NCBI RefSeq assembly: GCF_014489575.1
Contig: NZ_CP060789.1
Location: 3,348,001 to 3,412,000 of the forward strand
DNA from: Tessaracoccus defluvii
Lineage (GTDB): Bacteria > Actinomycetota > Actinomycetes > Propionibacteriales > Propionibacteriaceae
Direction: 5' to 3'
Length of the DNA: 64,000 nucleotides
A program made the position numbers and the translations under genes. This document shows, piece after piece, positions 37,254 through 48,740 of the stretch; the stretch's first letter is position 1, and each line of letters starts with the position of its first letter. The notes below the pieces were generated by a model, which ran no database searches, was not told the origin of the DNA, and saw nothing but the letters and a program-made list of their open reading frames with translations.

Positions 37254-38417
37254 ATGACCCCCATGGACATCGGCTTCCTCACCATCGCGGTACTCGTCAG
37301 CGGCGTCCTGTTCGCGGCAGGGGCGGTCGCGAACCGCTTCTATCACGACCGGATCTTCGCGGACATCACGCCCGGCCTGGTGCCGCCGCCCGGGGTGCAG
37401 GGCAACGTCGTCAAGGTGCAGCCGGGCCGCGAGTACTCGGGCGAGGTCGCCGTCGCCTTCTCGCCGCCGCGGGGGATGACGCCCGGCCTGATCGGGACCA
37501 TCGTCGACGGCAAAGCCGAGATGCGCGACATCACCGCCACGATCGTCGACCTTGCCGTGCGGGGCTGGCTGAAGATCGAGGCGATCCAGGCGGAGGCCGA
37601 GGCGAAGGATCCGAAGAAGAAGGCCCGCGACTGGAAGATCACCCTGTCGGCGACCGCGCCGGCCGACCAGCTCACCCCGTTCGAGACGCGGCTGCTGGAG
37701 TCGATACGGTCGATGCGCGGCGCCGCAGCCGGAGCCGGAGTGCTGATGAGTGACTGGACCAGGCAGCGCGGCGACGACCTGCGGGGCCTGCAGCAGAGCC
37801 TGTACGCCGAGACGGTGGCGGCAGGCTGGTACGAGAAGAGCCCGGCGCCGCGGTCGTCGTTCGGCTGCCTGTCGATCCTCGGCTATCTCGCGGTCGCCGC
37901 CTACCTGCTGGCCATGTTCGCCAACGGGGTCACGGTCTGGTCGATCGTGAGCGCCGTCGTCATCATCTCCTCGATCGTGTTCTTTAAGAAGAAGTTCTCG
38001 GCCCGCGTGCCGCGCACGGCCGTCGGCACCGCCGTCCAGATCCAGGCGCTCGGGTTCAAGAAGTACCTCGCCACCGCCGAGGCGGAGCAGTTCTCCTTCG
38101 AGGAGGCCGCCGGCATCTTCAGCCGCTACCTGCCGTACGCCCTGGTATTCGGGGTGGCGGCGCACTGGGCGAAGGTCTTCGGCGAGGTCGCCAAGGCGAG
38201 CAGTGAGATCGGCGGCGAGGATCTCTTCGACGGGCTGATGTGGATGGATGTCGGCTTCGACATGGCCTGGACGATGTCGATGTTCGGCGACGGCGGGTTC
38301 GACGGGCTGTTCGACATCGAGGGCATGGTCGGCGGGCTCGGCGACGTCGCTGAGGGCCTCGGAGGCTTCGTCGAGGGTATCGGCGACTTCATCTCGGACA
38401 TCGACTTCGACTTCTGA
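37254..38417 (+). CDS. DUF2207-like membrane protein
   Basis: 387 residues: an N-terminal membrane helix (about 5-25), an extended/cytosolic middle of the DUF2207 C-terminal type (TIVDLAVRGWLKIEAI, LTPFETRLLESI, GWYEKSP), two central membrane helices (about 205-245) and a glycine-rich, acidic tail (GDGGFDGLFDIEGMVGG, ending DIDFDF). The usual long N-terminal extracellular DUF2207 domain is absent, so this is a short form. The start ATG at 37254 follows CACAAT by seven bases (leaderless); ATGs at 37245 and 37263 are alternatives. Function unknown. Repeats follow the stop immediately. Confidence 0.75.
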   Translation: MTPMDIGFLTIAVLVSGVLFAAGAVANRFYHDRIFADITPGLVPPPGVQGNVVKVQPGREYSGEVAVAFSPPRGMTPGLIGTIVDGKAEMRDITATIVDLAVRGWLKIEAIQAEAEAKDPKKKARDWKITLSATAPADQLTPFETRLLESIRSMRGAAAGAGVLMSDWTRQRGDDLRGLQQSLYAETVAAGWYEKSPAPRSSFGCLSILGYLAVAAYLLAMFANGVTVWSIVSAVVIISSIVFFKKKFSARVPRTAVGTAVQIQALGFKKYLATAEAEQFSFEEAAGIFSRYLPYALVFGVAAHWAKVFGEVAKASSEIGGEDLFDGLMWMDVGFDMAWTMSMFGDGGFDGLFDIEGMVGGLGDVAEGLGGFVEGIGDFISDIDFDF

Positions 38418-38445: not shown

Positions 38446-38603
38446 CCCTTCGAGACGCTCGCTGGCGCTCGCTCCTCAGGGAGCGCCTTCGAGACGCTCG
38501 CTGGCGCTCGCTCCTCAGGGGCCGGTGTTCCCTGAGCTTGTCGAAGGGTCGCTCCTCAGGGGCCGGTGTTCCCTGAGCTTGTCGAAGGGTCGATCCTCAG
38601 GGG
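38446..38603. repeat. Array of short dispersed repeats (two unit types)
   Basis: Two copies of a 36-bp unit A (38446-38481, 38486-38521; starts CTTCGAGACGCTCGC, ends CTCCTCAGGG) are followed by two copies of a ~41-bp unit B (38521-38561, 38561-38603) built round the near-palindrome CCCTGAGCTTGTCGAAGGG. Both units carry CCCT/AGGG ends, like REP-type intergenic repeats. Confidence 0.8.
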
Positions 38604-38610
38604 CCCCGAG

Positions 38611-38700
38611 CACGAATCTCCGCTGAGCCGCCGCTGCGTGCATATGCGCGTAGCCGCGGCTCCAGCCAGCGCAATGCTCGTTGGAGCCAGATTTGTGCAC
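38611..38700 (+). repeat. 90-bp structured dispersed repeat, copy 1
   Basis: Begins CACGAATCTCC and ends AGATTTGTGCAC. A second copy, 90 bp and about 90 percent identical, lies inverted at 48616-48705. The ends pair (38611-38619 with 38689-38697, one G-T). A long hairpin spans 38625-38662 with an ATAT loop, and a short GCTC-N4-GAGC hairpin spans 38676-38687. Differences between copies preserve the pairing (see findings). Confidence 0.85.
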
Positions 38701-38711
38701 GGGGTGTGGGG

Positions 38712-38747
38712 CCCTTCGAGACGCTCGCTGGCGCTCGCTCCTCAGGG
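38712..38747. repeat. Third copy of 36-bp repeat unit A
   Basis: Same unit as at 38446. It supplies the stop codon (38742-38744) of the FAD oxidoreductase gene on the minus strand, so the repeat has settled exactly at that gene's 3' end. Confidence 0.8.
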
Positions 38748-39847
38748 GCCGACGCTCAGCTGGTCCCGCACCGCCAGCGCCGCGACCCGACCCGCCCGCG
38801 TCGCCCCGATCGTCGACGCCGACGGGCCGTAGCCCACGAAGTGGATCCGCCGGTCCCTGGTCGCCGTCGTGAACGTGTGCGGGTCCCGCGGCGCCTCCAA
38901 CTGGATGCCGCCCGCGTCCCCCCGGAGCCGCAGGAGCCGCAGGTGCGCCACGCTCGGACGGAAGCCCGTCGCCCACACGATCGCGTCGGCGGGCTCGAAC
39001 GAGCCGTCAGCCCAGCGGACGCCGTCCGCCTCGACGCGGGTGAACATCGGCCGCCTCGCCGCGTAGATCCCGAGTTCCGCCGCCCGTCGCTCCTGCGGGC
39101 GCAGCATCAGGCCCGTGACGCTGACCACCGACTTCGGAGGGAGGCCGCGACGCACCCGCTCCTCGACGAGGGCGACGGCCTCGCGCCCCGCCTCCGGGTC
39201 GAAGTCGCCGGTGCGCCACACGGGGGTCCGCCGCGTCACCCACGCGATGCTCCCGGCGATGTCCGCCAGTTCCCCGATGAACTGCACCGCCGACGCCCGC
39301 CGCCGACGACGACCACGCGCAGGCCGCGGAAGAACTCCGGCCCGGGGTAGCCGGCGGTGTGGAACTGGGGGCCGCGGAAACCGCGGGCACCGGGATAGAA
39401 CGGCAGGAACGGCGTGTCCCACGTGCCGGTGGCGTTGACGATGGAGCGGGCTCGCCAGCAGCCCGCCGTCGTCGTCACCACGAGCGGCGCGTCAGGGCCG
39501 GGGGCCTCGGGTGCGACCGAGGTGACCCTCACGGGCCGCTCGACCGGCAGGCCGAGCCGGGCCTCGTACTCGCCGAAGTAGGCCGGGACGGTGACGTTCG
39601 CGCGGGCGGCCGGATCGAAGTCGGGCACCGGCATCCCGGGGAGGTCGGCGACGCCGTGCACATCGTGCATCGTCAGCGAGTCCCAGCGGTGCTGCCAGGC
39701 GCCGCCGGGGGCGTCGTTGGCATCGAGGACGACGAAGTCGAGGGCGAGCCGCTGCAGGTGGTAGGCGGCCGAGAGCCCGGCCTGGCCGGCGCCGATGACG
39801 ACGGCGTCGAGCAGCGGGAGGTCAGCGGAGGTGCCGGGTGCTGGCAT
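38742..39847 (-). CDS. FAD/NAD(P)-dependent oxidoreductase, monooxygenase-like (apparent frameshift)
   Basis: About 368 residues after repair. The FAD-binding GxGxxG is in AVVIGAGQAGLSAAYHL, followed by PGGAWQHRWDSLTMHD as in flavin-containing monooxygenase/CzcO-like proteins; the NAD(P) fold is RVVVVGGG and then SAVQFIGELAD in the next frame; ATGFRPSVAHLR lies near the C-terminus. One base is missing at 39291-39298. The ATG at 39847 follows TAGGCT (39860-39855) by exactly seven bases. The stop lies in a dispersed repeat. CzcO-like proteins occur near metal-resistance genes, but the exact role is unknown. Confidence 0.82.
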
Positions 39848-48353: not shown

Positions 48354-48572
48354 ATGAGATCTGTTGAGCGGGTCGACCTGAAGAGGACCGGGCGGCGCGT
48401 CGTTCCTGGGCTGGTCGTGATTCTGCTCGGCCTGGTGGTCGTCGGCGCGACCACGACGTTCAGCTGCTCGGAGGCGTCCTGCGGGCCGACAACGGCTCCG
48501 CTCGCCGTCCTCTTCGCCGTCGCCGCCGTCGTGGTCGGAGGGGTTCTCCTGTTCAGGCGTAGGCGTCGCTGA
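48354..48572 (+). CDS. Small two-helix membrane protein
   Basis: 72 residues: basic N-terminus, membrane helix (about 17-36), a short Cys-x4-Cys loop (SCSEASC), a second helix (about 46-66), and a basic RRRRR end. GAAGGGCGG about six bases before the ATG may act as ribosome site. No family is recognised. The 177 bases between vanZ and this gene hold nothing clear. Confidence 0.55.
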   Translation: MRSVERVDLKRTGRRVVPGLVVILLGLVVVGATTTFSCSEASCGPTTAPLAVLFAVAAVVVGGVLLFRRRRR

Positions 48573-48615: not shown

Positions 48616-48705
48616 GTGCACAAATCTGGCTCTTCCGAGCATTGCGCTGGCTGGAGCCGCCGCTATGCGCATATGCACACAGCGGCGGCTCCATGGAGAT
48701 TCGTG
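48616..48705 (-). repeat. 90-bp structured dispersed repeat, copy 2 (inverted)
   Basis: Same element as 38611-38700 on the opposite strand, starting 36 bases from the end of the racemase-GH78 gene. Its long hairpin stem is perfectly paired, and the loop of the short hairpin is GGAA, a GNRA-type tetraloop. Confidence 0.85.
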
Positions 48706-48740
48706 CCCGTGGGGCGCGGCGCGTCTGTTCTCAGAGTGTC

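Follow-up and report, generated by a model that had tools for sequence, protein, structure and literature searches.

What is a 90-bp sequence, present twice on opposite strands and able to fold on itself, doing in the chromosome of Tessaracoccus defluvii? The stretch of DNA analysed here (the window) comprises 64,000 nucleotides, positions 3,348,001-3,412,000 of a genome of 3,864,792 bp that forms a single contig. The first-pass annotation of the window had drawn attention to the two copies, had read base changes between them as selection on a fold, and had proposed a small RNA or a structured, non-autonomous mobile element among the possible explanations.

Anatomy of the repeat

The two matching sequences, 38611-38700 on the plus strand and 48616-48705 on the minus strand, are each 90 bp long and differ at nine positions. 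On re-inspection the pairing of their ends, the hairpin around ATAT and the change in the loop of the small hairpin (GTTG against GGAA) are all present. The conserved unit spans 94 alignment columns, slightly beyond the 90 bp reported (38608-38700 and 48616-48708). Its edges were defined on one copy per locus, that is on 31 of the 56 aligned copies; the left edge is sharp, and on the right a conserved G at +1 is followed by a weak signal to about +17. The unit is bounded by imperfect 12-bp terminal inverted repeats (left GTGCACGAATCT, right AGATTYGTGCAC) and contains a palindromic core around ATAT, followed by a right half made of direct repeats of about 20 bp (AGCCAGATTYGTGCAC). In the window the parts lie as follows:

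38608-38700, plus strand: copy 1, the 94-column unit, between convergent open reading frames ending at 38417 (+) and 38742 (-)
38608-38619, plus strand: left terminal inverted repeat of copy 1 (family consensus GTGCACGAATCT), with its partner at 38689-38700; this helix (helix 1) is paired in 90.8% of cells
38626-38661, plus strand: palindromic core of copy 1, the long hairpin around ATAT, whose stem letters do not covary over 56 copies
38664-38679, plus strand: degenerate internal form of the right-end unit of about 20 bp in copy 1, recognised by eye
38685-38700, plus strand: right-end unit of copy 1 (AGCCAGATTYGTGCAC), the member of the direct repeats that is present in nearly every copy
48616-48708, minus strand: copy 2, between convergent open reading frames ending at 48572 (+) and 48741 (-)
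48637-48652, minus strand: degenerate internal right-end unit of copy 2, recognised by eye
48616-48631, minus strand: right-end unit of copy 2, located with the unit matrix

A second repeat family surrounds copy 1 (window 38447-38524, 38508-38589 and 38713-38751), with CCTTCGAGACGCTCGCTGGCGCTCGCTCCTCAGG and a CCCTGAGCTTGTCGAAGG motif; one or both of these motifs also occur in four other loci (L031, L032, L042 and L049).

A matrix built for the unit of about 20 bp found 118 places in 247,031 bases, against one in a reversed control. Within the elements it falls at offset 78 in 54 of the 56 copies, and at 77 and 79 in one each; a degenerate form rises above threshold at offset 57-58 in seven of the 56 copies, and the unit recurs at offset 98-100 in 14. 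Spacings below 120 bp between units on the same strand are mostly 20-22 bp (28 cases) or 39-41 bp (seven), the other five being drawn from 29, 46, 59 and 115 bp. This regular spacing of two helical turns suggests that the units are bound by a protein.

A dispersed family in one chromosome

Counting copies over the whole genome, a check proposed with the first-pass annotation, gives at least 63 non-overlapping profile matches in the stretches around BLAST matches, at least 56 of them near full length; the BLAST search scored the best 40 of 53 candidates, so that the count may be low. A search with the end motifs yielded four more, namely a tandem trio of degenerate copies near 1,488 kb and, near 3,539 kb, half a copy. 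The 56-copy alignment used throughout leaves out the seven partial matches of the 63 as well as the trio near 1,488 kb. Tandem groups hold 42 of the 56 near-full copies; these arrays consist of duplications of the element together with its spacer, and neighbours are 79-97% identical in within-locus alignments longer than 110 bp (73% in L035). The arrays thus grew by local tandem duplication.

The repeat has no match in 38 other Tessaracoccus genomes, where all candidates were scored, and among the few candidates scored per genome in 198 genomes of the family (29 genera) it was found in its own genome only. The exact 21-base left end has no match across a collection of genome contigs from which the own genome may have been left out. 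An origin from a phage or plasmid was considered and rejected, the consensus being without match among plasmids and phages; one 16-mer match in each of seven viral contigs was taken as chance. The roughly 60 copies of a unit of about 94 bp form a lineage-specific dispersed family in one Tessaracoccus chromosome.

The palindrome across 56 copies

Both copies fold strongly on the strand that was originally read, with z-scores of -5.07 (copy 1) and -8.48 (copy 2) against shuffled sequences, none of 200 shuffles being as good. On the complementary strands the values are -1.57, with 13 of 200 shuffles as good, and -4.43. In the first-pass annotation the argument for selection on this fold rested on covariation between the two copies, and it did not survive the larger alignment. 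In the three-helix structure that had been named, standard pairs fill 84.2% of 1624 cells, slightly below the 85.8 +- 0.4% obtained when the 3' letters are shuffled; every one of 500 shuffles equals or exceeds the observed value. Covariation scores 0.074, where shuffling gives 0.103, and nine cells are changed on both sides where 31.9 are expected. RNAalifold, given all 56 copies, drops the hairpin wholly and contains no pair changed on both sides. The further copies thus break the stems at the chance rate, the very outcome that the annotation had named as speaking against its reading.

The two pairs singled out earlier illustrate how this came about. The change from C/G to T/A at 38637/38650 (columns 30/44) is real, but its reading as a compensating change fails, since over the 56 copies C-A occurs 17 times and C-G twice. 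Likewise, the C-C mismatch at 38632/38655 (columns 25/49) does become C-G in the second window copy, but there is no covariation at this pair in the family as a whole (C-G 27, G-G 15, C-C 12, C-T 2, G-C 0). A single compensating pair between two copies resembled covariation and was gone with 56, which calls for caution with such comparisons.

The palindrome itself is real in the family consensus, since sliding the helix partners cuts pairing to 28-40%. Its hairpin arms vary independently, like those of a decaying DNA palindrome. At alignment columns 22, 25, 49 and 52, C/G exchanges stand at matching places of both arms (GCSGCSGCT), and they are almost never in paired combination (two of 56 and none of 56).

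Position in the genome and traces of insertion

Gene calls were made with a crude GC-bias caller of our own. The element occupies 35 loci, two of which are unclassified, no gene having been called on one side; the other 33 comprise 13 convergent, 18 co-directional and two divergent gaps. Compared with the element-free gaps in these stretches (convergent 7, co-directional 45, divergent 19), convergent gaps are enriched (p=9e-4) and divergent gaps depleted (p=0.017), a comparison that is approximate in that element loci were subtracted from the full set of gaps there. In the co-directional loci the element has the orientation of the flanking genes in ten and the reverse orientation in eight. If dnaA-dnaN is taken as the origin, thirty of the 35 loci fall in the origin-proximal half of the chromosome (p=2e-5, the loci being clustered and non-independent).

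One copy (genome 3043542-3043634, L048) lies between two genes which we take to be dnaA and dnaN, in what is presumably the oriC interval. The dnaA-like protein of the host is 94% identical to its counterpart in Tessaracoccus coleopterorum, and the distance from the dnaA stop to the shared block is about 290 bp in the host, with one element copy inside, against about 46 bp in T. coleopterorum. The extra DNA behind dnaA is a lineage-specific gain; it is larger than one element, so that the sister sequence is not a clean empty site.

Target-site duplications, which the first-pass annotation had suggested counting, do not exceed shuffled pairs in the 56 copies for lengths of 2-10 bp: none was seen for k=3-10, and two for k=2, where 1.4 are expected. 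The exact 13-mer left end has 47 matches in the genome, all within element copies or left-end remnants. At genome 3534378-3539327 (L349) a 4.9-kb stretch with transposase-like genes, and with repeats inside it, splits an element into a left half (profile 1-41) and a right half (49-91). By eye we judge this stretch to be an insertion into an element and not the parent element, because it starts and stops inside the element core and its outer sequences are unlike the element ends. REPs are reportedly targets of insertion, and the 4.9-kb stretch is in keeping with this.

Other genes of interest occur next to element copies: an integrase-core (IS3-like) gene pair at L044 (3857-5151), a DDE_3 transposase gene at L050 (2914-3603) and, flanked by inverted element copies, a gene weakly like REase_MTES_1575 and AbiEi_4 at L039 (2186-3088).

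Nature of the repeat

The family is, in all probability, a lineage-specific, REP/BIME-like, non-autonomous interspersed DNA repeat; the earlier suggestion of a structured, repeated and apparently non-autonomous element is supported, and mobility we infer from the distribution of the copies. Like REPs and BIMEs, the repeat is extragenic and palindromic, lies downstream of genes, is species-specific and forms tandem mosaics, and 31 of the 33 classified loci have the position described for REPs, between co-directional or convergent open reading frames. REPs of the GTAG/CGTC superfamilies are described as palindromes of 20-40 bp with an unpaired GTAG or CGTC tag (PMC3733652), and as usually exceeding 100 copies per genome (PMC2817692). 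The window unit differs from them in its length of 94 bp, in ending with GTGCAC and having no GTAG or CGTC tag (by eye), and in its copy number, at least 56 near-full copies among 63 matches plus four found later being short of 100. It differs from GTAG REPs also in its direct repeats of about 20 bp, in the lack of a detected RAYT in the host, and in having a DUF222/HNH-motif protein as candidate partner. The class of the family, a REP-like dispersed repeat, is ordinary, whereas its form and candidate partner are unusual.

Among the alternatives, repeated transcription terminators or stabilisers of mRNA 3' ends, in which a GC-rich hairpin would act behind convergent genes in either direction, would fit the convergent enrichment, the divergent depletion and the folding of the GC-rich hairpin. 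This explanation is unlikely, as by eye the hairpin is not followed by a run of T, the arrays of two or three copies and the repeats of about 20 bp are left unexplained, and the repeat has no match in sister species, whose transcripts must end too; termination may be something that a mobile repeat brings about incidentally rather than a rival to it. A structured small RNA, or a 3'-UTR RNA element under selection on its fold, would share the downstream position, and the strong folding of both copies on one strand speaks in its favour. We regard it as highly improbable, given pairing and covariation below the shuffled expectation over 56 copies and the hairpin dropped by RNAalifold. The near-equal orientation relative to the flanking transcription and the presence in a single species among those searched likewise disfavour the small RNA proposed at the outset. 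No Rfam family reached its gathering score in the window, and on four loci Rfam gave two weak hits away from the elements.

The remaining alternatives concern the kind of mobility. The repeat resembles a MITE in being short, non-coding and dispersed with terminal inverted repeats, and the 4.9-kb stretch with transposase-like genes between element halves could be taken for the classical DDE insertion sequence that such a MITE would require. It differs from MITEs in lacking target-site duplications, in the direct repeats of its right half and in that no insertion sequence with matching ends was found, the 13-mer left end being confined to the element and its remnants and the 4.9-kb stretch being bounded inside the core; descent from a DDE insertion sequence is thus quite unlikely. 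Integron attC sites, whose ends are RYYYAAC/GTTRRRY, are likewise imperfect palindromes of about 90 bp in tandem. That the element is such a recombination site is scarcely credible: its ends, GTGCACGAATCT/AGATTYGTGCAC, are unlike those of attC, the array spacers duplicate each other and are not cassettes, and no integron integrase is among the ten neighbour proteins scanned. Mobilisation as a genuine REP, by a RAYT (Y1 transposase), would agree with the position, species specificity and tandem arrays given in the REP descriptions (PMC3733652, PMC2817692). We give it a very small chance, since PF01797, the RAYT domain, has no match in the host genome while five of 14 control genomes are positive, and since no GTAG or CGTC tag stands at the foot of the hairpin (by eye). 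A RAYT partner was accordingly rejected. A reverse transcriptase partner was rejected as well: the genome has five RVT_1 places, and the profile finds no element in the stretches around them.

DUF222 genes beside the repeat in the host genome

Four DUF222 genes are found in the host genome with E <1e-15. Three of them (114813, 2613547 and 3421385) are next downstream of repeat copies on the same strand, at 314, 391 and 314 bp from one, three and three copies, respectively; the fourth (936801) has no copy nearby. At these genes the copies lie on one side only. Two of the three adjacent genes (L031 694-1818 and L049 628-2168) lie in the two copies, 88% identical, of a 1.5-kb duplication, so that the cases count as two independent ones, the protein of the third gene being 38% identical. 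The chance that two of three independent genes should be so placed is about 1e-3, on the assumption of 3,500 genes. The duplicated genes look broken, one having an odd short end and the other a frame split in two. As to the HNH motif, the Pfam HNH profile scores just below its cut-off in L043 and has no hit for L031 or for the piece of L049 that was scanned.

Flanking repeats in sister species

The comparison was extended to 69 DUF222 windows. Of 30 matching sister genomes, 29 contributed one locus each (G011 yielded none), and 40 further places were picked, the locus of the host genome (L175) being excluded. Some windows are cut by contig ends, and in five of the 69, where no central open reading frame was called, a fixed middle was left out instead. 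Flank repeats were defined as matches with E up to 1e-10 and of at least 40 bp, the gene left out. They occur in 17 of the 69 windows, from ten of the 29 genomes, against none of 82 control windows (p=5e-7); a first count of 22 fell to 17 once the whole open reading frame was excluded. At L188, one of the 17, the repeat seems to lie within the coding sequence of an adjacent gene, and with 16 of 69 the p-value becomes 1e-6. Counted per genome, ten of 29 stand against none of 20 controls (p=0.003). For the controls, a single 20-kb stretch was taken from each of 20 sister genomes, of which 19 belong to the 29, and windows were set around its genes coding for 350-650 aa; these windows partly overlap and had only their central 900 bp left out, a laxer rule than exclusion of the whole frame. 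Loci and genes within one genome are non-independent. Flank repeats are absent from 52 of the 69 windows and from 19 of the 29 genomes.

These repeats differ from the element of the window, which has no match in the sister genomes. Repeats on both sides of the gene come mainly from one genome, G010, with seven of the nine such windows after frame exclusion; it also supplies seven of the 17 windows with flank repeats. Here a 94-bp unit has at least 98 matches (best 40 of 138 candidates scored), 80 of which stand near DUF222 genes, at most 2.2 kb away; 11 of the 13 genes are accompanied in this way, and nine have the unit on both sides. Among the matches listed the orientation is strict: 46 are on the plus strand on the low side, 34 on the minus strand on the high side, and none is reversed. 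Eight DUF222 proteins of G010 that were compared are 83-93% identical, and an HNH motif was found by pattern in all eight. In a second genome, G038, the flanking repeat has at least 112 matches over 2.8 Mb (palindrome self-matches included; best 40 of 94 candidates); at its locus L184 inverted flanks enclose a DUF222 gene in which the HNH motif was not found by pattern. The two-sided flank repeat at L172 of G004 is direct.

Outside the genus, flank repeats were seen in nine of 28 DUF222 windows, or seven of 28 after gene exclusion, against one of 126 dnaA-locus windows. We rely on the genus result alone, because in the matches shown none of the outside repeats is inverted across the gene and some are probably coding.

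A possible partner for the repeat

The inverted ends and the units of about 20 bp would be binding sites for a protein that acts in trans to spread the unit, and the position behind genes would be what purifying selection tolerates. The most likely candidate for this protein is a DUF222 (13E12-type, HNH-motif) protein, because DUF222 genes adjoin both this repeat and other species-specific repeats in the genus, much as RAYT genes lie between REPs; the likeness is closest in G010, where the gene stands between inverted repeats. By this analogy a DUF222 protein is a possible mobiliser of the repeat, a role that we put forward tentatively. As a wider and equally speculative proposal, DUF222-HNH proteins might act in trans on a second kind of actinobacterial REP system, independent of RAYTs, in which the gene would lie between inverted arrays of a species-specific palindrome and its protein would spread solo copies through the chromosome, in the case of the window's family behind genes. 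The 94-bp family would then be the version of one lineage, with its DUF222 units decaying.

RAYTs account for the origin of REP-like repeats in some bacteria only. A gene family that stands beside species-specific repeats in several species of a single genus, and within strictly inverted arrays in one, offers a concrete candidate for those of Actinobacteria; it also suggests what DUF222-HNH genes might do. In the available text of two papers (PMC10589994, PMC13061034), REP13E12 of Mycobacterium tuberculosis is treated as a gene region that is repeated and has no defined function, with no mention of flanking arrays of short repeats. The likeness lies in DUF222-HNH genes that are themselves repetitive, and in the host DUF222 genes adjoin the element. 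No link to flanking short repeats was seen, either, in the open-access papers found for DUF222.

Alternatively, the repeats and the DUF222 genes could gather because both are tolerated at the same sites. An argument against shared tolerance is the strict inversion seen in G010, which holds for that genome but not for the host. The other 18 listed matches of the G010 unit fall into five one-sided arrays and a single inverted pair with a short interior between. At L339 of G010, inverted arrays enclose a short interior; this may be what a deletion has left of a DUF222 unit.
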